Shown in pieces: positions 3,642-16,863 of a stretch of DNA of 64,000 bases. The stretch spans positions 50,487-114,486 of the forward strand of contig CAILNX010000053.1 of NCBI GenBank assembly GCA_903835685.1, written 5' to 3'. The notes beneath the pieces were generated by a model. That model saw only the letters and a program-made list of their open reading frames with translations. It was not told the origin of the DNA and did no database searches. Position 1 is the first letter of the stretch. The number at the start of each line of letters is the position of its first letter. The stretch comes from an uncultured delta proteobacterium (GTDB lineage Bacteria; Desulfobacterota; Desulfovibrionia; Desulfovibrionales; Desulfovibrionaceae). A program made the position numbers and the translations under genes.

Positions 3642-5498
3642 ATGCAAACATTCACTACCGATCTTTTGTGCATCGGCGCTGGTCTGGCCGGTGAGCGGGT
3701 GGCCGTGGCCGCGGCAGAGGCCGGATTCGGCGTCATCTGCTTGAGCCTGGTGCCCTCGCGGCGGTCCCACTCCTCGGCCGCGCAAGGCGGCATGCAGGCG
3801 GCCCTGGGCAACTGCGCCAAGGGCGAGGGCGATTCCCCGGACGTGCATTTCCTGGACACGGTCAAAGGCTCGGACTGGGGCGCGGACCAGGAAGTGGCCC
3901 GCATCTTCGTGGACAACGCGCCCATCGCCATGCGCCAGATGGCCCACTGGGGCGTGCCCTGGAACCGGGTCGTGCCCGGCACCTCCACCTACTTCAAGGG
4001 CGGCAAGCAGTTCGAAAAGACCGAGAAAGCCGAGAACGAGGGCCTGATCGCGGCCCGCGACTTCGGCGGAACGGCCAAATGGCGCACCTGCTACGCGGCT
4101 GACGGCACCGGCCACTCCGTGCTCTACACCCTGGACAACCGGGCCGTGCAACTGGGCGTGGAAGTCCACGACAAGGTCGAGGCCATCAGCCTGATCCACG
4201 ACGGCGAGCGGTGCATGGGCGCGGTGATCCGGTGCTTGAAGACCGGCGAACTCTCCGTGTACCTGGCCAAGGCCACCCTGATCGCCACGGGCGGTTTCGG
4301 CCGTATCTACCGGGAGACCACCAACGCGGTGATCAACGACGGCGGCGGGAACATCATCGCCTTGAACACCGGCGTGGTCCCCCTGGGCAACATGGAGGCC
4401 GTGCAGTTCCACCCCACGGGCATCGTGCCCACGGACATCCTGATCACCGAGGGCTGCCGGGGCGACGGCGGCACGCTTTTGGACAAGAACGAGTACCGCT
4501 TCATGCCCGACTACGAGCCGGACAAGGCCGAACTGGCCTCCCGCGACGTGGTCTCCCGGCGCATGACCGAGCACATGCGAAAAGGCCTGGGCGTGGACAG
4601 CCCCTACGGCACCCACCTCTGGCTGGACATCCGGCACCTGGGCGTCAAGCACCTGACCACCAAGCTGCGCGAGGTGGACGAGATCTGCAAGAACTTCCTG
4701 GGCGTCGACCCGTCCAAGGACTTCGTCCCGGTCCGGCCCACCCAGCACTACTCCATGGGCGGCGTGCGCACCAACAAGGACGGCGCGGCCTACGGCTTAA
4801 AGGGCCTGTTCAGCGCTGGCGAATCGGCCTGCTGGGACATGCACGGGTTCAACCGCCTGGGCGGGAACTCCCTGGCCGAGACAGTGGTCGCGGGCATGGT
4901 CGTGGGCGGCAAGGTGGTGGAGTTCCTCAAGGGATACGAGACCTTCTTCTGCACCAAGACCATCGACGCGGCGGTCAAGTTCGAGCGCGAACGCATCGCA
5001 GGCCTCATCTCGGGCAAGTACGGAACCGAGAGCGTGTACCAGGTGCGCGACGCCATGTTCGATTCCATCATGAAGGGCGCGGGCATCTTCCGCAACGGCA
5101 AGGACCTTCAGACCTGCGTGGACGAGCTGGAAGCCATTCACGAGCGGGCCGGCAAGGTGAGCCTGCGCTCGAACGGCCTGGGGGCCAACCCGGAACTGGC
5201 CGTGGCCTTGAAAATCCAGGGCATGGTCAAGCTGGCCCTGTGCGTGGCTTACGGCGCGCTGAAGCGCACGGAATCCCGCGGCTCCCACGCCCGCGAGGAC
5301 TTCCCCGAGCGCAACGACCGCGACTGGCTCAACCGCACCCTGGCCTATTGGAAGGAAGGCGACAGCCTCCCGACCCTGAAATACGAGGACGCCACCCCCT
5401 ACTTCGAACTGCCTCCGGGCGACCGGGGCTACGGCGGGGGCAAGATCATCCCGGCCGATCCCGCAAAGATCGTGGTGAAGGAGAAGAACAATGGGTAG
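3642..5498 (+). CDS. frdA: Fumarate reductase flavoprotein subunit
   Basis: This 618-residue catalytic subunit reduces fumarate to succinate on covalently bound FAD at the cytoplasmic face of the membrane. The dinucleotide fold GAGLAGERVAVAAAEAG is at residues 12-28. The flavin-attaching His is residue 43, in RRSHSSAAQGGMQ, the same number as in Wolinella. Substrate and active-site segments follow: HPTGIVPTDILITEGCRGDG, the ASRDVVSRRM arginine loop, HYSMGGVRTN and GFNRLGGNSLAE. All family residues I looked for are present. The gene overlaps frdB by 8 bases (ATGGGTAG), indicating coupled translation. Confidence 0.96.
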   Translation: MQTFTTDLLCIGAGLAGERVAVAAAEAGFGVICLSLVPSRRSHSSAAQGGMQAALGNCAKGEGDSPDVHFLDTVKGSDWGADQEVARIFVDNAPIAMRQMAHWGVPWNRVVPGTSTYFKGGKQFEKTEKAENEGLIAARDFGGTAKWRTCYAADGTGHSVLYTLDNRAVQLGVEVHDKVEAISLIHDGERCMGAVIRCLKTGELSVYLAKATLIATGGFGRIYRETTNAVINDGGGNIIALNTGVVPLGNMEAVQFHPTGIVPTDILITEGCRGDGGTLLDKNEYRFMPDYEPDKAELASRDVVSRRMTEHMRKGLGVDSPYGTHLWLDIRHLGVKHLTTKLREVDEICKNFLGVDPSKDFVPVRPTQHYSMGGVRTNKDGAAYGLKGLFSAGESACWDMHGFNRLGGNSLAETVVAGMVVGGKVVEFLKGYETFFCTKTIDAAVKFERERIAGLISGKYGTESVYQVRDAMFDSIMKGAGIFRNGKDLQTCVDELEAIHERAGKVSLRSNGLGANPELAVALKIQGMVKLALCVAYGALKRTESRGSHAREDFPERNDRDWLNRTLAYWKEGDSLPTLKYEDATPYFELPPGDRGYGGGKIIPADPAKIVVKEKNNG

Positions 5499-6240
5499 AA
5501 GGCTGCAATTCAACATATTCCGGCACAACCCCCTGGACCCGGCCTCAACGCCGCACATGCAGCCCTTCATCATGGAGGAGCTGCCCAACATGACGCTCTT
5601 CATTGCCTTGAACAAACTCCGCGAAGAGCAGGACCCCGGACTCCAGTTCGAGTTCTGCTGCCGCGCGGCCATCTGCGGGGCCTGCGCCATGGTCATCAAC
5701 GGCAAGCCCGGACTGGCCTGCCGGACCAAGACCGTGGACCTGCCCGAGGAGATCAACCTCCTGCCCCTGCCCTTCTTCAAACTGGTGGGCGACCTGACCG
5801 TGGATACCGGGACCTGGTTCCGGGACATGGCCAAACGGGTGCGCTCCTGGGTGCACACGGACAAGGACTTCGACCCCAAGGCCCAGGAAGAGCGCATGGA
5901 CAACGCCCTGGCCGACGAAATCTACGAGTTGGACCGTTGCGTGGAGTGCGGCTGCTGCGTGGCCGCCTGCGGCACGGCCCTCATGCGCCCGGACTTTCTG
6001 GGCGCGGTGGCCTTGAACCGCGTGGCCCGCTTCATGATCGACCCCCGCGACCAGCGCACGGACTGCGACTACTTCTCGGTCATCGGCTCCGACGAGGGCA
6101 TTTTCGGCTGCATGGGCCTTTTGGGTTGCGAGGACGTCTGCCCCAAGCAGATCCCCCTGCAGGACCAGCTGGGCATGATCCGGCGCAAGCTGGCCCTGGC
6201 CGCCGCCAAGAACTTCTTGCCGCGCTTCATGCGCTCGTAA
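5491..6240 (+). CDS. frdB: Fumarate reductase iron-sulfur subunit
   Basis: The 249-residue subunit links the FrdA flavin to the FrdC haems. The [2Fe-2S] ligands lie in FCCRAAICGACAM, and the C-terminal ferredoxin-like domain has CVECGCCVAACG and CMGLLGCEDVCPKQIP for the [4Fe-4S] and [3Fe-4S] centres. It overlaps frdA by 8 bases and is followed after 17 bases by the fumarase alpha gene, so frd and fum are probably one transcript. Confidence 0.95.
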   Translation: MGRRLQFNIFRHNPLDPASTPHMQPFIMEELPNMTLFIALNKLREEQDPGLQFEFCCRAAICGACAMVINGKPGLACRTKTVDLPEEINLLPLPFFKLVGDLTVDTGTWFRDMAKRVRSWVHTDKDFDPKAQEERMDNALADEIYELDRCVECGCCVAACGTALMRPDFLGAVALNRVARFMIDPRDQRTDCDYFSVIGSDEGIFGCMGLLGCEDVCPKQIPLQDQLGMIRRKLALAAAKNFLPRFMRS

Positions 6241-6257
6241 AGCCAAGGAGCATCATC

Positions 6258-7094
6258 ATGCGCACCATACTGGCCAAGGATATCAGCGACAAGGTCGCGG
6301 CCATGTGCATGGAGGCCAACCGCAAACTCCCCGAGGACGTGCTGGACAAGTTCGCTGCCTGCCACGCCGAGGAAGAGGGCGCGGCCAAGGAGGTCTTCCG
6401 CCAACTCCTGGAGAACGCCAAGCTCTCGGAAGAGACCGGCTTGCCGCTCTGTCAGGACTGCGGCCTGGCCATCTTCTTCGTGGAGATGGGCAACGATGTG
6501 CACGTGGAGGGAGGAACCCCCCGCCAAGCCATCGATGAAGGCATGATCCGGGGCTACAAGGACGGCTACCTGCGAAAGTCCGCCTGCGACCCCTTCACCC
6601 GCAAGAACACCGGGGACAACGCCCCGGCCATCGTGCACGTGGACATCGTCCCGGGCGACGGCTTCAAGATCATCATGATGGCCAAGGGCGGCGGCTCGGA
6701 GAACATGAGCCGGGTGACCATGCTCTCGCCGGCCCAGGGCTGGAAGGGCATCAAGGAGTTCGTGGTGCGCCGGGTGGCCGAGGCTGGCCCCAACCCCTGC
6801 CCGCCCACCATCATCGGCATCGGCATCGGCGGCACCTTCGAGGTGGCCCCCATGCTGGCCAAGAAGGCCCTGATCCGGGCCATCGGCGAGCCCCATCCCG
6901 ATCCGGCCATCGACAAGCTGGAGAAGGAGCTGGTGGAGACCCTCAACAAGCTGAACATCGGCCCCATGGGCCTGGGCGGCAAATACACCACCCTGGACGT
7001 GAAGATCAACGTGGCCCCCTGCCACCTGGCCAGTCTGCCCCTGGCTGTGAACGTACAGTGCCACTCGGCCCGGCACAAGGAGGTGGAACTCTGA
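6258..7094 (+). CDS. fumA: Class I (Fe-S) fumarate hydratase, alpha subunit
   Basis: The 278-residue product is the N-terminal half of the two-subunit, oxygen-sensitive [4Fe-4S] fumarase that interconverts fumarate and malate. Typical segments are GLPLCQDCGLAIFFVEMG, NTGDNAPAIVH, AKGGGSENMSRV and CPPTIIGIGIGGTFEVAP, with cysteines placed to bind the cluster. The start at 6258 follows AAGGAG. Its stop shares bases with the start of the beta gene (TGATG). Tartrate dehydratase subunits are related, but the frd context favours fumarase. Confidence 0.93.
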   Translation: MRTILAKDISDKVAAMCMEANRKLPEDVLDKFAACHAEEEGAAKEVFRQLLENAKLSEETGLPLCQDCGLAIFFVEMGNDVHVEGGTPRQAIDEGMIRGYKDGYLRKSACDPFTRKNTGDNAPAIVHVDIVPGDGFKIIMMAKGGGSENMSRVTMLSPAQGWKGIKEFVVRRVAEAGPNPCPPTIIGIGIGGTFEVAPMLAKKALIRAIGEPHPDPAIDKLEKELVETLNKLNIGPMGLGGKYTTLDVKINVAPCHLASLPLAVNVQCHSARHKEVEL

Positions 7095-7651
7095 TGGCCA
7101 CCCACAACCTGACCACCCCGCTCACCGACGAGGTGGTGATGACGCTCAAGTCCGGTGACATGGTCTTTCTCACCGGGACCATCTACACGGCCCGCGACGC
7201 GGCCCACAAACGCCTCATCGAGGCCCTGGACGCCGGCTCGCCCCTGCCCTTTGAGATCAAGGGCGCGCTCATCTACTACGTGGGTCCCTCGCCCGCGCCT
7301 CCAGGCCGTCCCATCGGCTCCTGCGGCCCGACCACCAGCTACCGCATGGACACCTTCGCCCCGCGCCTGCACGCACTCGGCTTAAAGGCCTCCATCGGCA
7401 AAGGCAAACGCAGCGACGAGGTCAAGGCGGCCATGCAGAAGTACAAGGCCGTGTACCTCGGGGCCACGGGCGGGGCCGGAGCCCTGCTCTCCCAGTGCGT
7501 CACCGAGGCCAAGGTCATCGCCTACGAAGAGCTGGGACCCGAGGCCATCCGCGAACTGACCGTGGAGAAGTTCCCGCTTCTGGTCATCAACGACGCTTAC
7601 GGCGGCGAACTGTACACCACGCCCCGGCTGGATCTGGCCGGATACGAATAG
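7094..7651 (+). CDS. fumB: Class I (Fe-S) fumarate hydratase, beta subunit
   Basis: This 185-residue subunit completes the fumarase active site. It contains the family segments GDMVFLTGTIYTARDAAHKR, GSCGPTTSYRMD and LGATGGAGALLSQCV. The start is ATG at 7094 inside TGATG, directly coupled to the alpha subunit. A hairpin terminator lies 14 bases after the stop and probably ends most frd-fum transcripts before hdrA. Confidence 0.93.
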   Translation: MATHNLTTPLTDEVVMTLKSGDMVFLTGTIYTARDAAHKRLIEALDAGSPLPFEIKGALIYYVGPSPAPPGRPIGSCGPTTSYRMDTFAPRLHALGLKASIGKGKRSDEVKAAMQKYKAVYLGATGGAGALLSQCVTEAKVIAYEELGPEAIRELTVEKFPLLVINDAYGGELYTTPRLDLAGYE

Positions 7652-7664
7652 GAAAACCCGCGTG

Positions 7665-7696
7665 GGGGGCGGCGGCCCTGGCTGCCGCCCCCTTTT
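7665..7696 (+). terminator. Intrinsic terminator between fumarase and hdrA
   Basis: A perfect 9-bp stem, GGGGGCGGC (7665-7673) with GCCGCCCCC (7684-7692), has a 10-base loop and is followed by TTTT. The short T run suggests partial termination, letting some frd-fum transcription reach the hdr genes. Confidence 0.7.
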
Positions 7697-7739
7697 CCGA
7701 AAAAACATTCTCGCGGCACACCTCCAAAGGGGGGCAAGC

Positions 7740-10700
7740 ATGGCCCGCAAGGCGAAGGTCGAGGCGAAAGCGCCGGTTGGCGCGGTGTTGGTGGTGGGCG
7801 GCGGCATCGCCGGGATACAGTCATCCCTGGATCTGGCCAATGCCGGGTTTAAGGTCTGGCTGGTCGAGAAGGGTCCTGGAATCGGCGGGGTCATGGCCCG
7901 GCTGGACAAGACCTTTCCCACCAACGACTGCGCGATGTGAATACTCGCGCCAAAGCTGGTGGAGTGCGGTCGGCACTCCGACATTGAACTTTTGCCCTTG
8001 ACGGAACTGACCTCGGTGGAAGGTTCCGCCGGGGATTTCACGGTCACCCTGGAGCAGAAGCCCCGGTACGTGGACCCCGCGCTGTGCATCGCCTGCGGGG
8101 CCTGCGCCGAGAAATGCCCCAAGTCGGTGAAGAACGCCTTTGACGAGGGGTTCGCCGACCGCAAGGCGGCCTACATCCTTTATGAACAGGCCGTGCCGCT
8201 CAAATACGCCCTGGACCCGGACCACTGCATCTATCTGCAGAAGGGCAAGTGCCGGGCCTGCGAAAAGATCTGCCCCACCCAGGCCATCCGTTTCGACGAC
8301 CAGCCCAAGATCATCAAGGCCCATGTGGGGGCCATCCTGGCCGCGCCGGGATTCAAGCCCTTCAACCCCACCGTGTGCGAACCCTATGGCTACGGGGTCA
8401 TTCCCGACGTGGTCACGGGCATGGAGTACGAACGGCTGCTGTCCTCGTCGGGCCCCTGCCACGGGCACCTGACCCGGCCCTCGGACAAGACCGAGCCCAG
8501 GTCCGTGGCCTGGCTGCAATGCGTGGGTTCGCGCACCACCACCGGGGCCGGAAGCCCGGCCTGCTCCAGCGTGTGCTGCATGTACGCCCTGAAACAGGCC
8601 GTGATGACCGGGGCGCACACCAAGGGTGCGCCCGACCTGTCCATCTTTTTCATGGACCTGCGCACCCACGGCAAGGGATTCGAGGAATACGGCGAATCGG
8701 CCAAGGCCAAGGGTGTGAAACTAATCCGCTGCCGACCCCACTCCTTCCTGCCCGGACCCGAGGGCAAGGGCGTGGACATCCGCTGGGCCGACGAAACGGG
8801 CCAGGAGCAGCGCCGCACCTTTGATCTGGCTGTCTTGTCCGTGGGCCTGGCCCCGCCCCGGGACGCCTCGGACCTGGCTGCCAAGCTGGGCCTGACCCTG
8901 GACGAACGCGGCTTCGCCAAGACTTCGGGGTTTGACCCCACGGCGGCCAGCAAGCCCGGGGTGTTCGTGAGCGGCTGCTTCCATTCGCCCATGGACATCC
9001 CCACTTCGGTGGTCATGGCCTCGGCTGCGGCCTCGGCCGCGGCCAAGACCCTGGCCCAGTCCCGGGGAACCCTCATCCCGGCCAAGGTCACGCCACCCGT
9101 CACCGACGTGTCCGGCGAGACCCCCCGGGTGGGCGTGTTCGTGTGCTCCTGCGGCACCAACATCGCAGGCGTGGTGGACGTGGCCGGGGTGGTCGAATAC
9201 GCCCGCACCCTGCCCTACGTGGCCCATGTGGAGAACAACCTCTTTTCCTGCTCCCAGGACACTCAAGGGCGCATCATCCAGGCCATCCGAGACCAGAGCC
9301 TGAACCGGGTGGTCATCGCGGCCTGCACCCCGCGCACCCACGAGCCCCTGTTCCGGGAGACCCTCATGGCCGCCGGGCTGAACAAGTACCTGGTGGAGAT
9401 GGCCAACATCCGCAACCAGAACTCCTGGGTCCATGCCGATGAGCCCGAGGCGGCCACGACCAAGGCCAAGGACCTGACCCGCATGGCCGTGGCCCGGGTG
9501 GTGCGCCTCAAGCCGTTGGTGGAAAAGACCTTGAGCGTGAACAACGCGGCCCTGGTGCTGGGCGCGGGCGTGGCCGGCATGACCGCGGCCCTGGACCTGG
9601 CCGACCAGGGCTTCCCGGTCACCCTGGTGGAGCGCGCCGACTGCCTGGGCGGCAACGCCCGGTCCCTGCGCACCACCTCGCGCGGGGAGCGCATTGCCGA
9701 TTTCCTCTCGGACCTGGCCCTCAAGGTCCGCTCTCACGACCGGGTCACGGTCCTGACCGAGGCCAATCTGACCCATGTGGAAGGCTTCGTGGGCCATTTC
9801 ACCAGCACCGTGCGCCAGGGCCGCACGTCCCTGAAGATCGAGCACGGGGCGGCCATCCTGGCCACGGGCGCGGTGCAGACCCGGCCCAAGGAATACTGCT
9901 ACGGCAGACACCCGGCCATCATGACCCATCTGGAGATGGACCGGGCCTTGACCGAGGGCCTGGACCCGCACACCATCCACGAGGCCGTGTTCATCCAGTG
10001 CGTGGGATCGCGGGAGCCCGCCCGGCCCTGGTGCTCCCGGGTCTGCTGCACCCATGCGGTGAAACTGGCCCTGCATTTCAAAGAGAAGAACCCCAACTGC
10101 CGGGTGGCCGTGCTCTACCGGGACATGCGCACCTACGGCGAGCGTGAGCTTTTGTACCACAAGGCCCGCAAGCTCGGGGTGCTCTTCGTGCGCTACGAGC
10201 TGGGCGCAAAGCCTCGGGTGAGCATCAAGAACGGCGGGGTGCGGGTCATTGTCCGGGACCACGTGCTGGACCGGGACCTGGAGTTTCGGCCGGACGTATT
10301 GGGCCTGGCTGCGGCCATCGCGCCCCCGGACACGGACAAGGTCTCCCGGATGTTCAAGGTCTCCACCGACGCCCACGGCTGGTACCAGGAGGCCCACGTG
10401 AAACTCCGGCCCGTGGACTTCGCCACGGACGGGGTGTTTTTGGCTGGCATGGCCCACGGCCCCAAGGCCCTGGACGAAGCCCTGGCCCAGGCCCAGGCCG
10501 CCGCGGCCCGGGCGGCCCAGATCCTGTGCCAGACCGAGATGACCCTGTCCGGGATCACCGCCCAGGTGGCCGAGGCCAAATGCGTGGGCTGCAAGATGTG
10601 CGTGACCATCTGCCCGTTCAAAGCCATCGCCATGAATGACAAGAACCTGGCCGAGGTCAACGAGGCCATGTGCAAGGGCTGCGGCCTGTGTACCGGGTCC

Positions 10701-10796
10701 TGCCGGTCCTCGGCCATCGCCCTGCGCGGGTTCACGGACCAGGACCTCATGGCCCAGATCGGGGCCATGTTCTCGGATCAGGAGAGCCGCCCATGA
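7740..10796 (+). CDS. hdrA: Selenocysteine-containing HdrA-type electron-bifurcating flavoprotein (in-frame TGA read as Sec67)
   Basis: The 1018-residue product is a tandem HdrA. Module 1 starts at the FAD motif VVGGGIAGIQ and module 2 near residue 460 (VGVFVCSCGTNIAG), with a second FAD motif GAGVAGMTAA near 606. Ferredoxin clusters lie at about 116-180 and 947-995. A TGA at 7938-7940 interrupts the frame within FPTNDCAM-TGA-ILAPKLVECG. HdrA proteins normally have Cys there (DCAMC-ILxPK), and some methanogen HdrAs have selenocysteine. The frame is identical on both sides and a SECIS-like hairpin follows, so I read U67, giving a CxxU with Cys64. The start at 7740 follows AAAGGGGGG. HdrA carries the bifurcating FAD of Hdr complexes. 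It is coupled to the next gene (ATGA). Confidence 0.9.
7961..7979 (+). promoter_or_regulatory. Bacterial SECIS-like hairpin downstream of the hdrA TGA codon
   Basis: GGAGTGC (7961-7967) and GCACTCC (7973-7979) form a perfect 7-bp stem closed by the loop GGTCG, which starts 27 bases after the TGA. The Escherichia coli fdhF element also presents a GGUC apical loop and lies 18 bases from its TGA, and bacterial SECIS elements tolerate a range of such distances. There is no bulged U on the 5' side, unlike E. coli. The hairpin lies within the coding sequence. Confidence 0.65.
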
Positions 10797-11248
10797 TGAA
10801 GCCCTTGACCCCCATACAGCCGTACGCCCCGCGCATCGCGGCCATGTTCTGCAACTGGTGCACCTACGCGGGCGCGGACCTGGCCGGGGTGAGCCGCCTG
10901 CAATACCCGGCCAACTTCCGGGTGGTGCGGGTGCCCTGCACCGGCCGCATCAGCGCGGAAATGATCCTGCACGCCTTCAAGCAGGGCGCGGACGGGGTCT
11001 GGGTCTCGGGCTGCCATCCCGGGTCCTGCCACTACCTGGAGGGCAATCTCTACGCCCGCCGCCGGTTCGCCCTTTTAAAGAACATCCTCGAATACGCCGG
11101 GCTTGAGCCGGGCCGCCTGCACTTCTCCTGGATATCCTCTTCCGAGGCCACCAAATTCCAGGAGACGGCCATCGCCGTGGTCGAGACCGTACGCGCCCTG
11201 GGACCGGCCACGGGCTTTCTGGCTGGAATCAGGAGGGAGGTGGCATGA
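10793..11248 (+). CDS. flxD: MvhD/FlxD-type iron-sulfur subunit
   Basis: The 151-residue product resembles the delta subunit of methyl-viologen-reducing hydrogenase (MvhD) and FlxD of bacterial Flx-Hdr complexes. It passes electrons from the input module to HdrA through a [2Fe-2S] centre. Cysteine motifs seen are MFCNWCTYAGADLAG, VPCTGRIS and SGCHPGSCHYLEGN. ATG at 10793 overlaps the hdrA stop (ATGA); ATG at 10796 is an alternative. The end overlaps the next gene by four bases, so this is one tight operon. Confidence 0.85.
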   Translation: MMKPLTPIQPYAPRIAAMFCNWCTYAGADLAGVSRLQYPANFRVVRVPCTGRISAEMILHAFKQGADGVWVSGCHPGSCHYLEGNLYARRRFALLKNILEYAGLEPGRLHFSWISSSEATKFQETAIAVVETVRALGPATGFLAGIRREVA

Positions 11249-12195
11249 ACGAACGACAGATTTTCATCCGGGAGAAAGCGGCCCGGCTTTTGTCCGAAGG
11301 CCGCGTGGACCGGGTCCTCGGCTACCGCAAGGGCTCGGTGCCCCTGCGCGACGCGCCGTTTGTGGCCCGCACGCCCGAGGAGGCCGGGGAGCTGGTCTGG
11401 TCCTCCTTCTGCCTGGGCAATGTGGCCAAGGCCCTCATCGGGCTGCCGGGAAAGTCGGCCGTGGTGGCCCAGGGCTGCGTGAGCCGCAACCTGGCCGTGC
11501 TCCTGGCCGAGAACCGGGTCCTGCGCGAGAACCTGGTCATCATCGGCGTGCCCTGCCTGGGCATGGCCGACCCGGCCAAGGTCCTGGCCGAACTGGGTGG
11601 CCGGGAGCCCGCGTCCCTGGTCGAGACCGCCGAGACCCTGACCGTGTCCGGGCCGGGCTTCACCAAGGACTTGAAGCGCCAGTTCATGCTCCGGGACAAC
11701 TGCCACACCTGCCGCCACCGCAACCCGGTGATCCACGACTTCCTGGCCGCCGAGACCGGGCCGGAAACCGGGCTGGGGGATATCGAAAAGACCTCGGGGC
11801 TGTGGGAGAAATTCACTCCGGCCGAGAGATTCGAGCAATTGCAGGCCACCTACAAGGACTGCGTGCGCTGCTACGCCTGTCGCGACGCCTGCCCCCTGTG
11901 CTCCTGCCCCACCTGTTTCGTGGACCAGAGCGACCCCCAGTGGGTGGGCAAGACCCAGGACTTCTCGGAGATCGCGGCCTATCACCTGCTGCGGGCCTTC
12001 CACTGCGCCGGTCGGTGCACGGACTGCGGGGCCTGCGAATCGGCCTGCCCCCAGACCCTGAAAGTCCGGCGGCTGACCAGCAAACTGGAGCGGGATGTGC
12101 GCGCGCTCTTTGGCCGCGAGGCGGGCATGGACCCGAGCGTCCCGCCCCCGCTGGCCACCTGGAAGACCGACGACCCCGAAGGATTCATGAAATGA
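11245..12195 (+). CDS. 4Fe-4S electron-transfer protein of the Hdr-Flx operon
   Basis: The 316-residue product has an N-terminal part with scattered cysteines (AQGCVSR, GVPCLG, NCHTCRHRNP), reminiscent of FrhB/FlxB-like proteins. Its C-terminal two-cluster ferredoxin region has CVRCYACRDACPLCSCPTC and CAGRCTDCGACESACP. It probably wires the FlxA-like flavoprotein to the HdrA/FlxD pair. It overlaps flxD by ATGA. I cannot decide between FlxB and FlxC for this gene and the next, so no symbol is given. Confidence 0.7.
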   Translation: MNERQIFIREKAARLLSEGRVDRVLGYRKGSVPLRDAPFVARTPEEAGELVWSSFCLGNVAKALIGLPGKSAVVAQGCVSRNLAVLLAENRVLRENLVIIGVPCLGMADPAKVLAELGGREPASLVETAETLTVSGPGFTKDLKRQFMLRDNCHTCRHRNPVIHDFLAAETGPETGLGDIEKTSGLWEKFTPAERFEQLQATYKDCVRCYACRDACPLCSCPTCFVDQSDPQWVGKTQDFSEIAAYHLLRAFHCAGRCTDCGACESACPQTLKVRRLTSKLERDVRALFGREAGMDPSVPPPLATWKTDDPEGFMK

Positions 12196-12217
12196 GCCAA
12201 AGCCAAGGGGTGAATTG

Positions 12218-13315
12218 ATGTCCCAGAGAATTTTGGACCACGCCGGGCTTTCGGCCCTGTTCAAGGCCCTGGCCCAGGGGCGCAAGGCCTTTGTCCCGGC
12301 CACGGTCCAGGGCAAGGCGACCTGGATACCGGCCACGGACTTGGCCCAGGCCGACCTGTCCCTGGCCAATACCGCCTTTTCGCCCAAGAACTTCTTCTTC
12401 CCCCAGAGCGAGTGCCTGATGCGCTTTGGGGCGGACCCGGCCCAGGCCCACGAGCCCATGCAGCCTGCGCCGGGCCTGGACCAGGACCTGATGCTGTTCG
12501 GCCTGCGGCCCTGCGACGCCAAGGCCCTGGCCTTGCTGGACCGCATCTTCGGCCAGGACCCGGCCATGCTCGACCCCTACTGGGCGGACAAGCGGGAGCG
12601 GACCCTCCTGGTGGGCCAGTCCTGCCCCGCGCCCTGCCCGGTATGTTTCTGCACCGGCGTGGGCGGCCATCCTTTCGGGACCGAGGGCCTGGACCTGCTG
12701 TTCACCGACCTGGGCGAGTCCTTCCTGGTGGAGGTGATCTCCGAGCGGGGTGAGCGGGCCATGAAGGACCTGCCCATGGACGCGGCCAAGGCCGCGGCCG
12801 GGGACGAGCCGGGCAAGAAGGACCTGGCCCGGCGCGAGGAGCTGAAGAACCAGGCCGAGGCCGCCCTGGCCCTGGACCCGGCCAATGCCCCGGACCTCTC
12901 GGCCCTGGACAAGGCCGAGGTCCTGGACCTGTACGAATCCCCCCTGTGGGAGCGCCTGGCCGAAACCTGCCTGAACTGCGGGGCCTGCACCTTCTGCTGT
13001 CCCACCTGCCACTGCTTCGACATCCAGGACGAGACCAAGGTGGACGAGGGTCGCCGGGTGCGCAACTGGGACTCCTGCATGTCCGCACTCTTCACCAAGC
13101 ACGGCACCGGGCACAACCCCCGGGGCCGCAAGCTGGACCGGGTGCGCCAGCGTTTCATGCACAAATTCAAGTACATCCCCATAAAAAACCAGGAGATCGG
13201 GTGCGTGGGCTGCGGCCGGTGCGTGCGGCTGTGCCCGGTGAACATCGACGTGCGCCAGGTGGCCGCCCAGATGAACGGGCAGGCGGCCAGCGCAAGCGGA
13301 GGCCAGCGGCCATGA
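12218..13315 (+). CDS. 4Fe-4S protein similar to anaerobic sulfite reductase subunit A / Flx iron-sulfur subunit
   Basis: This 365-residue protein has the N-terminal AsrA-like fold (FFPQSECLMRFG, LFGLRPCDAKALALLD, SCPAPCPVCFCTGVGGHPFG) and C-terminal ferredoxin motifs CLNCGACTFCCPTCHC and CVGCGRCVRLCPV. Relatives pair with a FAD/NAD(P)-binding AsrB-like subunit, which is exactly what the next gene encodes. The start at 12218 follows AAGGGG. The end overlaps that gene by ATGA. It most likely relays electrons from the NAD(P)H-oxidising subunit toward HdrA. Confidence 0.78.
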   Translation: MSQRILDHAGLSALFKALAQGRKAFVPATVQGKATWIPATDLAQADLSLANTAFSPKNFFFPQSECLMRFGADPAQAHEPMQPAPGLDQDLMLFGLRPCDAKALALLDRIFGQDPAMLDPYWADKRERTLLVGQSCPAPCPVCFCTGVGGHPFGTEGLDLLFTDLGESFLVEVISERGERAMKDLPMDAAKAAAGDEPGKKDLARREELKNQAEAALALDPANAPDLSALDKAEVLDLYESPLWERLAETCLNCGACTFCCPTCHCFDIQDETKVDEGRRVRNWDSCMSALFTKHGTGHNPRGRKLDRVRQRFMHKFKYIPIKNQEIGCVGCGRCVRLCPVNIDVRQVAAQMNGQAASASGGQRP

Positions 13316-14157
13316 CCGATCATCAGTCCAACCCCTATCTGCCCTATCCGGCCCGTATCAGTCGCACCTGGGCCGAGACCGAGGACAAAAGCCTGCGGTC
13401 CTACTGGCTCTCCTTTGACCGGCCCGAGGACGCGGCGGCCTTTGCCTTCACCCCGGGCCAGTTCGCCGAGCTCTCCCTGGCCGGATACGGGGAAATCCCC
13501 ATCGGCATCGCCTCCAGCCCGGGCGAGGGGCCGGACCTGCTCTTCACCGTGAACAAGGTGGGCGTGGTCACCACCCGGCTGCACGAGTTGGGCGTGGGCG
13601 ACGCGGTCTTCGTGCGCGGACCGCTGGGCCACGGCTATCCCCTTGCGGCCATGCGCGGCAAGAACATCCTCGTCGTGGCCGGGGGATTCGCCGTGACCAC
13701 GCTGCGGGCCACCATGCACCACCTGCTGGCCCACCGGGCGGACTACGGAAAAATCACCTTCGTCTATGGGGCGCGCACCCCGGGCATGCTCATGTACCGC
13801 GAGGACCTGGCCGCCTGGGAGAAACGCGGGGACGTGGACATGTTCGTGACCGTGGACCGCGAGGCCCCGGGCTGGAGCGGGATGACCGGGTTCGTCCCGG
13901 CCGTGGTCGAGCGCGCCGCGCCCAGCCCGGAGAACGCCCTGGCCCTGGTCTGCGGCCCGCCGGTGATGATCAAATTCACTCAGCCCGTGCTGGACCGCCT
14001 GGGCTGGGGGGCCGACCAGATTTACCTGAGCCTGGAAAACCGCATGAAATGCGGCATGGGCGTGTGCGGGCGGTGCAACGTGGGTCCCTGGTACGTGTGC
14101 AAGGATGGCCCGGTGTTCACCAAGGCCCAACTCGACCGCCTACCCAAGGAGTACTGA
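13312..14157 (+). CDS. flxA: FlxA-type NAD(P)H/FAD oxidoreductase subunit (AsrB-like)
   Basis: The 281-residue product is a ferredoxin-NADP reductase-type flavoprotein. It has an N-terminal FAD barrel (FTPGQFAELSL, IPIGIASSPGEG), a nucleotide domain (ILVVAGGFAVTTLR and CGPPVMIKF) and a C-terminal [2Fe-2S] site (CGMGVCGRCNVG plus a later Cys). It would be the entry point for NADH or NADPH. Malic enzyme two genes downstream is a likely local source of that reductant, an inference from context. It overlaps the previous gene by ATGA and ends one base before the next. Confidence 0.82.
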   Translation: MTDHQSNPYLPYPARISRTWAETEDKSLRSYWLSFDRPEDAAAFAFTPGQFAELSLAGYGEIPIGIASSPGEGPDLLFTVNKVGVVTTRLHELGVGDAVFVRGPLGHGYPLAAMRGKNILVVAGGFAVTTLRATMHHLLAHRADYGKITFVYGARTPGMLMYREDLAAWEKRGDVDMFVTVDREAPGWSGMTGFVPAVVERAAPSPENALALVCGPPVMIKFTQPVLDRLGWGADQIYLSLENRMKCGMGVCGRCNVGPWYVCKDGPVFTKAQLDRLPKEY

Positions 14158-14158
14158 C

Positions 14159-15487
14159 ATGGCCGCCACCGCCAAACTCAAGCCCTTCAGGCCCCGGGAG
14201 ATTCCCAAGGACTTGAAGGCCAAACTCTCGGCCCTGAACATGGAGACCTGCTACACCTGCGGGACCTGCTCCAGCGGCTGCCCCATCACCGGCACCCCAG
14301 GGGTTCAACTGGACACCCGCAAGGCCGTGCGCATGATGGCCCTCGGCCTCATCGACGAGCTGGTGGACTCGGAATTCCCCTGGATCTGCACGGGCTGCGG
14401 CCGCTGCTCCTACGGCTGCCCCCAGGGCATCGACATCTGGTACTGCCTGGCGGCCATGCGGGCCTTGCGCCGCCGGGACAAGGTCCCGGGCACCCTGCAC
14501 ACCGGGGTCATGCGCAACCTGGCCTCGGGCAACAACATGTCCGTGTCCATCGAGGACTACCTGGACACCTTGAAGGACGTGGGCCGGGAAATGGCCGAAG
14601 AGGACTGCCCGGGCTTCTACGTGCCGGTGGACAAGCAAGGGGCCAACGTCCTGTTCTTCCCCAATTCCAAGGAGATTTTCGGCGATTACGAGGACATGAA
14701 ATGGTGGTGGAAGATCTTCTACGCCGCCCGCGAGTCCTGGACCGTGCCCTCGCGCAACTGGGAGGCCGTGGACTGGGGTCTGTTCACCGCCAACACCGAC
14801 GCGGTGAAGACCTTTGCCCGGCGCAAGATCGACATCTACACCACCCTGGGATGTCAGACCATGATCATGCCCGACTGCGGCGGCGGCTCCTACGGCTGCC
14901 GGGCGGGCCTCAAGGCCTGCTCCCTGGACGACCCCTCCAGCCGGGTGAATTATTCCTATCTCTACCCCTACTTGAAGGAACTCATCGAGACCGGCCGGAT
15001 CAAGGTGGACAAGAGCCGGAACGCGGGCAAGCGCTTCACCTGGCACGACTCCTGTAAACACGGCCGGGAGCTGGAGCGCCATTTCGGGATCGGCTTTTAC
15101 GACGAGCCGCGCTGGATTCTCTCCCAACTGGTGGACGATTTCGTGGAAATGGTCCCCAACCGGGTCAACAATTTCTGCTGCGGCGCGGGCGGGGGCAACT
15201 GGCCCATGCCCTATGAGAAGCAGTCGGCGGCCCACGGCCGGTTCAAGGTGGAGCAGATCAAGAACACCGGCGCGGACGTGGTGGTGGTGGGCTGCTCCAA
15301 CTGCCGGGACCAGATCATGCGCCGCCTGCCCAAGTTTTATGAAGGGTGCAACTACGAAGTGAAATACATCTGGGAGCTGGTCGGCGAATCCCTGATCATC
15401 GACCCCTTGAGCGAAGAGGAAGTGGCCAAGGCGGCCAAGCAGGAAGCGGCCCAATGGAAGCGCTTCGGCGTGGAAGAAGAGGAATAG
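14159..15487 (+). CDS. HdrC-HdrB fusion (HdrD-like) Fe-S protein with CCG domain
   Basis: The 442-residue product joins an HdrC-like part to an HdrB-like part. The HdrC part has two [4Fe-4S] motifs, CYTCGTCSSGCP from residue 31 and CTGCGRCSYGCP near 80. The HdrB part has one canonical cysteine-rich CCG motif (HDSCKHG, NFCCGAGGGN, GCSNCRDQ). The place of a first CCG motif is taken by LGCQTMIMPDCGGGSYGC. In the family the CCG domains hold the disulfide-reducing noncubane cluster, so this subunit should be the high-potential outlet of the complex; in sulfate reducers DsrC is a candidate partner. No separate hdrB or hdrC gene is nearby. Confidence 0.83.
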   Translation: MAATAKLKPFRPREIPKDLKAKLSALNMETCYTCGTCSSGCPITGTPGVQLDTRKAVRMMALGLIDELVDSEFPWICTGCGRCSYGCPQGIDIWYCLAAMRALRRRDKVPGTLHTGVMRNLASGNNMSVSIEDYLDTLKDVGREMAEEDCPGFYVPVDKQGANVLFFPNSKEIFGDYEDMKWWWKIFYAARESWTVPSRNWEAVDWGLFTANTDAVKTFARRKIDIYTTLGCQTMIMPDCGGGSYGCRAGLKACSLDDPSSRVNYSYLYPYLKELIETGRIKVDKSRNAGKRFTWHDSCKHGRELERHFGIGFYDEPRWILSQLVDDFVEMVPNRVNNFCCGAGGGNWPMPYEKQSAAHGRFKVEQIKNTGADVVVVGCSNCRDQIMRRLPKFYEGCNYEVKYIWELVGESLIIDPLSEEEVAKAAKQEAAQWKRFGVEEEE

Positions 15488-15543
15488 GCCTGACCAATAG
15501 TCGGAAAAACAGGCGGGAGAACCCCGCCGCCAAGGAGGATCAC

Positions 15544-16863
15544 ATGGCCCTGTACACCAAGCAAGAAGCCCTGGATTACCACAGCACGTTTCCCGCCGGG
15601 AAGCTGGAAAGCATCCCCATGAAGCCCTGCCTGAACCCCAAGCACTTGAGCATGGCCTATTCTCCGGGCGTGGCCGAGACCTGCCGGGCCATCCACGCCG
15701 ACCCCAACGAAGTCTACAAGTACACCAACAAGGGCAACCTGGTGGCCGTGGTCTCCAACGGCACGGCCATCCTGGGTCTGGGCAACCTGGGCCCTCTGGC
15801 GGCCAAGCCGGTCATGGAAGGCAAGGGCGTCCTGTTCAAGACCTTTGCGGACATCGATGTCTATGACATCAACTTGAACTGCAAGGACCCGGAGCAGCTC
15901 ATCGAGATCGTGAAGGCCCTGGAGCCGACCTTTGGCGGCATCAACCTGGAAGACATCAAGGCCCCGGAATGCTTCCACATCGAGCAGACCCTGATCAAGG
16001 CCATGACCATCCCGGTCTTCCATGACGACCAGCACGGCACGGCCATCATCTCCGGCGCGGGCCTGATCAACGCCATGGAGATCGCCAACAAGAGCATCGA
16101 GAGCCTGCGCGTGGTGGTCTCCGGCGCTGGCGCGGCGGCCATCGCCTGCTCCAACTTCTACATCTCCATGGGCGTGCCCCGGGAGAACATCTCCATGTTC
16201 GACTCCAAGGGCCACATCCACACCGGCCGCACGGACTTAACCGCCGAGAAGAAGCTCTTCGCCCAGAAGAAGGCCTTCGCCAACCTGGGAGAGGCCTTCA
16301 AGGGCGCGGACATGTTCCTGGGCCTGTCCACCAAGGATCTGGTGAACAAGGACATGGTCAAGGCCATGGCCAAGAACCCGGTCATCTTCGCCATGGCCAA
16401 CCCGGACCCGGAAATCCCCTATCCGGTCGCCAAGGCCGCCCGCAAGGACCTGATCATGGGCACCGGCCGCTCGGACTTCTCCAACCAGGTGAACAACGTG
16501 TCCGGCTTCCCGTACATCTTCCGCGGCGCTCTGGACGTGCGGGCCAAGACCATCAACGAGGCCATGAAGCACGCGGCGGCCAAGGCCCTGGCCGCCCTGG
16601 CCAAGGAAAAGATCCCCTCGGAGATCCTGGACCTCTACGGGGAGAAGAAGCTGTCCTTCGGCCTGGACTACGTGATCCCCAAGGCCCTGGACACCCGCAT
16701 GTTGGTCTGGGAAGCCCCGGCCGTGGCCCAGGCGGCCATGGACACCGGCGTGGCCCAGGTCAAGATCGACATCGAGCAGTACAAGAAGGACTTAAAGGCC
16801 CGGCTCAAGGCCTCCAAGAAGCGCATCACTTCCTTTGTGAAGAGCTACAAGTACCCCTTCTAA
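15544..16863 (+). CDS. maeB: Malic enzyme (oxaloacetate-decarboxylating, NAD(P)-dependent)
   Basis: The 439-residue protein is a short-form malic enzyme without the phosphotransacetylase extension of E. coli MaeB. It converts malate to pyruvate, CO2 and NAD(P)H. Markers are [20 protein letters not shown], the [19 protein letters not shown] catalytic loop, the metal site [11 protein letters not shown] and the nucleotide fold [13 protein letters not shown]. The start at 15544 follows CAAGGAGG. It closes the hdr operon 56 bases after the HdrCB gene and is followed by a terminator. Cofactor preference cannot be read with certainty. Confidence 0.92.

Follow-up and report, generated by a model that had tools for sequence, protein, structure and literature searches.

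A tandem hdrA gene with an in-frame TGA, predicted to encode selenocysteine, and a SECIS-like hairpin in an uncultured deltaproteobacterium

Introduction

Does the TGA inside an hdrA gene of an uncultured deltaproteobacterium end a protein, or is it read as selenocysteine (Sec)? The question arises in the window, by which we mean the whole 64,000-nucleotide stretch of DNA analyzed here. A preliminary description of this DNA had reported two open frames of the same phase with the TGA as their only divider, and the frame from 7740 to 10796 is indeed open except at 7938-7940. The features on which the answer depends are as follows.

7740..10796, plus strand: hdrA, for a tandem HdrA of 1018 residues (stop not counted), with a single in-frame TGA; matches solved HdrA chains (best E value, 2.2e-184)
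7938..7940, plus strand: predicted Sec codon TGA, codon 67, in CAMU; 53 of 133 and 44 of 67 homologues have TGA at this codon, and the rest have Cys
7960..7980, plus strand: SECIS-like hairpin, with arms at 7960-7967 and 7973-7980 and the loop GGUCG at 7968-7972

Results

The open reading frame places the ATG at 7740 in phase with both the internal TGA and the terminal TGA stop at 10794-10796, which overlaps the start of flpD, and reading through the former leaves zero other internal stops in the 1018 residues. In its context, NDCAM-U-ILAPK, the internal TGA occupies the second Cys of the HdrA CxxC motif, so that the gene has the in-frame UGA at the CxxC/U site that defines bacterial Sec-HdrA. 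Solved HdrA chains align across the TGA without a gap and pair it with the final Cys of the TLDCSMC stretch of chain 8rvu, in agreement with the preliminary description. Residues 16-392 resemble the flavin domain of the solved methanogen HdrA, residues 460-625 match its N-terminal domain, which continues into a second flavin domain, and residues 874-1014 match its C-terminal part; the second flavin half (604-926) is also matched by 6tjr. Against the NCBIfam HdrA2 model (NF040770), the product scored 937 bits, below the curated cut-off of 1100 bits. Compared with seven relatives, third codon positions differ most and second positions least both upstream of the TGA (0.42-0.61 and 0.09-0.19, respectively) and downstream of it (0.39-0.57 and 0.24-0.26); by this comparison, both parts of hdrA are under purifying selection.

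The alignment of Cys- and Sec-containing homologues at this site, proposed in the preliminary description, was carried out on 133 genes, among them that of the window (L107), with at least 44% identity over 700 or more aligned residues. They came from a search of named genomes (79 loci), an order-level survey (30 loci), and added regions (24 used). From the 141 loci at the outset (L028-L168), four were dropped for having no match over the site, and another four (L137-L140), which are the Cys HdrA and the Qmo-like genes of the own genome, were excluded for identity or length. The site codon is TGA in 53 genes and TGC or TGT in 80, and it is never TAA or TAG; one of the search patterns behind the 79 named-genome loci included the Cys in question, which skews these loci toward Cys.

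The codons shortly after the site behave unusually in the Sec genes. When each of 841 columns was scored on the rows carrying its commonest residue, columns 75, 76, and 78 were among only six that showed no synonymous change across the 53 Sec genes, the other three being 300, 887, and 919. In this set, Glu75 is always GAG and Arg78 always CGG (53/53 each), residue 76 is either Cys encoded by TGC (38 genes) or Val encoded by GTC (15 genes), and Gly77 is GGT in 38 and GGC in 15. In the 80 Cys genes, columns 75, 76, and 78 are ordinary, with Glu75 as GAA in 32 and GAG in 20 and with six codons in use for Arg78. Across all 97 Sec genes collected, one of them a duplicate protein, residue 76 is Cys or Val only.

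These codons coincide with a hairpin that the preliminary description did not mention and that tracks the Sec state across the family. Its sequence at 7960-7980, UGGAGUGC-GGUCG-GCACUCCG, forms seven Watson-Crick pairs and a closing U-G, and its loop begins 27 nucleotides past the TGA. Bacterial SECIS elements are coding-region hairpins that lie approximately 16 to 37 nucleotides past the UGA and have a G in the apical loop. The hairpin agrees with this placement and loop, but only with the first 12 nucleotides outside the fold: once these are omitted, it is the best fold (-14.9 kcal/mol), whereas a fold that includes the TGA onward prefers a different structure (-18.1 kcal/mol, with a z score of -1.79 and with 11 of 200 shuffles folding as well). 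We set the competing fold aside on the assumption that a ribosome at the UGA would cover these 12 nucleotides. A scan of 7700-8300 with Rfam gave three matches only, all far below their cut-offs.

Two registers of the hairpin occur among the Sec genes. Form 1, that of the window, has the loop GGUCG, and form 2 has the stem CUGGUCG/CGGCCGG and the loop AGGU, which begins five nucleotides closer to the UGA. A GGU-loop hairpin with at least five pairs is present in 51 of the 53 Sec genes and in 7 of the 80 Cys genes; lowering the threshold to four pairs raises these numbers to 53 and 13. The outer pair of form 1 (23-41) is paired in 30 of 38 genes (C-G in 20, T-A in 6, G-C in 2, and T-G in 2) and unpaired in 8, and only 1 of 10,000 shuffles did as well, in a procedure that ignores relatedness. 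Two form-1 genes carry A-C at pair 25-39.

For the protein tree, built by FastTree with the site masked, and for the motif count, a duplicate protein (L130) was removed, leaving 132 rows. This tree requires 12 switches between Sec and Cys, of which starred branches force at least 8. The hairpin motif is present in 52 of 52 Sec rows and 1 of 80 Cys rows, counts that come from the set on which the motif was defined and from related sequences that are not independent. In eight independent pairs, the motif follows the Sec state in seven, opposes it in none, and shows no difference in one (P = 0.016).

A phylum-level search of 345 genomes, 210 of which had a match at 1e-250, supplied 67 further loci (27 new loci and the next 40 by rank that were not yet in the collection); 3 of the 67, all Cys, duplicate stretches already present in the first set. 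The site is TGA in 44 and Cys in 23, and the motif, fixed beforehand, was found in 38 of the 44 Sec genes and 0 of the 23 Cys genes. The six Sec genes that miss it carry variants of form 2 that have 6 to 8 pairs and in which the outer C-G pair is T-A in three and broken in three.

Within the first set, a single Cys gene has an intact motif: L057:8001-11006, with TGC at the site and an exact form-1 hairpin, likely the remnant of a change from Sec to Cys. PMC1794560 reports such remnant SECIS elements in Cys genes of other families.

The genome from which the window comes (65 contigs, 97.56% complete) encodes the machinery that Sec insertion requires, each component scoring above its cut-off: a tRNA-Sec (82.7 bits, anticodon TCA), SelB (368 bits) and SelA (608 bits), whose genes lie approximately 1.5 kb apart on contig C9, and SelD (347 bits). 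The search for selA, selB, selC, and selD that the preliminary description had called for thus ended in their favor, and the absence of selB or selC, which it named as counterevidence, was not borne out. The selD gene itself has an in-frame TGA (KAAG-TGA-AAK), after which the RNA folds as a hairpin with the loop GGU, and three of the four formate dehydrogenase alpha genes (fdhA) that score over the cut-off have one TGA, in the context QAR-TGA-HS. The fourth fdhA, L182 (G000:C37:130996-133998), is without an in-frame TGA. One further HdrA is encoded in this genome, on contig C26; it is shorter and has TGC at the site.

Since an in-frame TGA, a conserved hairpin, and the Sec machinery genes occur together, hdrA likely encodes a selenium-containing HdrA. 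Specifically, the gene product is very probably a bacterial selenoprotein HdrA, in which SelB and tRNA-Sec, directed by the hairpin, are predicted to decode the TGA at codon 67 as Sec.

A nonsense change or a misread base in an ordinary Cys-HdrA gene is a common cause of an in-frame stop, and the close relatives L108 and L109 do have Cys. Such a pseudogene or sequencing error is nevertheless very improbable here: TGA recurs at the site in 52 further first-set genes and in 44 of the 67 new loci, with TAA and TAG never seen there, the frame is intact for 952 codons past the TGA, most change falls at third positions in both parts, and the hairpin tracks the TGA. With TGA at codon 67 in so many other genomes, a misread TGC or TGT is not credible. 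That a dead gene was unlikely had been proposed in the preliminary description from the gap-free flanks and the operon context, and the same conclusion follows from these homologue data.

Nor do we give more credit to two separate genes, a 66-residue piece and a second protein starting downstream, for example, at GTG 7959. The list of open reading frames does contain two pieces, 7662-7940 and 7959-10796, just as the preliminary description had foreseen that a standard annotation would split the gene, but this split would cut a flavin domain that aligns gap-free across the TGA and would leave the frozen codons and the hairpin right after it unexplained. Leaky read-through of TGA occurs in bacteria, and the codon could in principle be read as Cys or Trp with no Sec involved. 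Against this, the least probable of the three alternatives, stand the Sec machinery and the other TGA-bearing selenoprotein genes of the genome; moreover, the terminal stop of hdrA is also TGA, and the fold there is different and weaker. Sec at codon 67 remains our reading of this gene.

In the order-level survey, TGA was found in 49 and Cys in 5 of the 54 top-ranked tandem-HdrA copies examined, the window's included; together with the 44 of 67 phylum-level loci, such recurrence at exactly this codon excludes chance. At 1e-100, the underlying search had matches in 123 of the 297 genomes, many of them to other HdrA-like genes. Some rows from this survey contain one TAA; they are 31-33% identical and most likely represent QmoA-QmoB neighbors read in phase, judging from a similar case in the own genome. 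There, L138 (G000:C17:47930-49933) consists of two neighbors, presumably QmoA- and QmoB-like, in one frame with TAA between them. A TAG inside a match in G068 was considered as a recoded stop and rejected, as the site codon is TGC and the aligned part is stop-free. L126, from the same order, clusters with the Desulfoplanes record L036, which makes Desulfovibrionales the probable identity of this order. The clade of the window's hdrA comprises eight others (local support, 99), six of them Sec (L110-L115) and two Cys (L108 and L109).

The hdrA gene lies among the following genes, several of which carry tentative labels.

3642..5498, plus strand: fumarate reductase flavoprotein subunit (NCBIfam PRK08626, 1061 bits; cut-off, 663)
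5491..6240, plus strand: open reading frame that we take to be the fumarate reductase iron-sulfur subunit
6258..7094, plus strand: presumably the alpha part of fumarase; frame inside the open reading frame 5937-7094
7058..7651, plus strand: open reading frame, presumably the beta part of fumarase; its start may be nearer 7094
10793..11248, plus strand: flpD/mvhD-like subunit (PF02662, 172 bits, above cut-off); start overlaps the hdrA stop
11245..12195, plus strand: iron-sulfur protein with weak Fer4 and FrhB_FdhB_N matches, which we assume to be possibly FlxC-like
12215..13315, plus strand: AsrA/sulfhydrogenase-beta-like iron-sulfur subunit (NCBIfam 171 bits, under cut-off; PF17179 over cut-off), presumably FlxB-like
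13303..14157, plus strand: AsrB/sulfhydrogenase-gamma-like NAD(P)-binding flavin subunit (NCBIfam 203 bits, under cut-off; PF00175 over cut-off), presumably FlxA-like
14105..15487, plus strand: HmcF/TmcB/DsrK-like protein with one CCG domain (165, 137, and 131 bits, all under cut-off; PF02754)
15544..16863, plus strand: malic enzyme (NCBIfam PRK12861, 524 bits over the malic-enzyme part, under the full-length cut-off)

The bacterial Hdr-Flx complex named in the preliminary description has a possible counterpart here: FlpD scores above its cut-off, but the other neighbors are only Flx-like, with NCBIfam scores under the cut-offs, and a separate HdrB and HdrC were not found at the locus, where a single HmcF/TmcB/DsrK-like protein stands in their place.

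Much of this arrangement recurs in related genomes. L175 (G124) has the order of the window, frdA-frdB-fumarase-hdrA-flpD followed by the counterparts of the 11245 gene and of the AsrA-like and AsrB-like genes; malic enzyme was not found in this stretch. In L171-L174, hdrA is preceded by the fumarase and malic enzyme genes, with the downstream set as far as the AsrB-like gene equal to that of the window; frdB is also present in L172 and L174, and the stretches of L171 and L173 stop at fumarase. In L169 and L170, which have Cys, the set from hdrA to the AsrB-like gene is kept, and frdA, frdB, fumarase, and malic enzyme were not found in the stretches taken. Outside the clade, flpD adjoins hdrA in five Sec copies (L176-L180), two of which also show an HmcF-like gene. 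L175 also carries NfnAB-type genes (14025-16707) between the AsrB-like and HmcF-like genes, which are not so placed in the window.

Discussion

The neighbors of hdrA suggest a source of NAD(P)H in malate and a context of fumarate, malate, and succinate metabolism, in which NAD(P)H would be generated by the malic enzyme. In such a scheme, electrons from NAD(P)H would enter at the AsrB-like flavin subunit (13303-14157) and pass via the iron-sulfur subunits and FlpD to the HdrA flavin, where HdrA would send one to ferredoxin and the other to the HmcF/TmcB/DsrK-like protein, for which a disulfide or a membrane carrier is a possible partner; the chain may also run in the opposite direction. CAMU, which lies in the flavin domain matching the bifurcating domain of methanogen HdrA, may serve as a redox pair or a cluster ligand, with Sec altering the reactivity and potential of the pair or itself acting as the ligand. 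The parts of PMC12350162 and PMC6019823 available to us name the HdrA clusters and do not give the role of the matching Cys.

All of this may be joined into a wider model, which we offer tentatively and to which we assign somewhat less than even chances: a Sec-dependent electron-bifurcating complex dedicated to malate, fumarate, and succinate, in which NAD(P)H from the malic enzyme would feed a two-flavin Sec-HdrA, the CxxU motif would tune the flavin, and an overlapping SECIS in one of two registers would dictate residue 76. If the register does dictate residue 76, then an RNA signal would shape the flavin domain of HdrA.

With regard to known systems, the preliminary description had placed Sec-HdrA in some methanogens. 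This is correct as far as it goes, since the accessible parts of PMC2933860 and PMC11227280 describe Sec-HdrA in methanogens and Asgard archaea, with hdrA by frhD or vhuD as in the window, but Sec-HdrA is not confined to them. Bacterial Sec-HdrA has been in print since 2006, when 16 were listed (PMC1794560), which makes the present case less new than the preliminary description implied; HdrA1 and HdrA2 of Desulfobacterium autotrophicum (PMC2702500, 2009), the hdrA of Desulfococcus multivorans with its SECIS (PMC5109826, 2016), an HdrA read-through cluster (PMC1914089), and the CxxU motif of Sec-HdrA in a review (PMC13188914, 2026) followed or accompany it in the excerpts we could consult. As far as these excerpts extend, the bacterial cases (PMC1794560, PMC2702500, and PMC5109826) share with the window an in-frame UGA read as Sec, often beside mvhD or frhD, in sulfate-reducing or related bacteria, and the window differs from them in its fumarate reductase, fumarase, and malic enzyme neighborhood with NAD(P)H-type subunits. 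In the methanogens and Asgard archaea, the same sources indicate, SECIS elements were sought and found in 3' untranslated regions, whereas the hairpin of the window lies in the coding sequence, as in bacteria.

The FlxABCD-HdrABC system of Desulfovibrio vulgaris, the subject of a paper cited in PMC5296606, combines HdrA with FlpD/FlxD-like, AsrA-like, and AsrB-like NAD(P)H-type subunits, to which the neighbors of hdrA in the window may correspond. Compared with it, the window is without a separate HdrB and HdrC, has the HmcF/TmcB/DsrK-like protein and malic enzyme following, and encodes a tandem HdrA with Sec.

Sec-HdrA itself is therefore not new; what is less usual is the fumarate reductase, fumarase, and malic enzyme neighborhood, which close relatives share, together with the two registers of the hairpin, which restrict residue 76 to Cys or Val. 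In the open-licence literature, represented mostly by listings, we found neither two-register codon freezing nor a fumarate- or malic-enzyme-linked Sec-HdrA, and among the matches listed, none pertinently linked hdrA to malic enzyme and fumarate in Desulfovibrio, one of them concerning Pelotomaculum.

Because a plain list of open reading frames splits hdrA in two, annotation can lose the gene, and the TGA together with either hairpin register provides a simple test that separates Sec from Cys HdrA. Natural pairs of Sec and Cys proteins, such as those offered by the Cys orthologues L108 and L109 and by the hairpin-bearing Cys gene L057, could reveal the role of selenium in flavin-based electron bifurcation. 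L108 (G068) and L109 (G049), the closest orthologues of the window's gene, have Cys and are without the hairpin motif, and each of their genomes carries a second tandem HdrA copy with Sec (L145 and L146).
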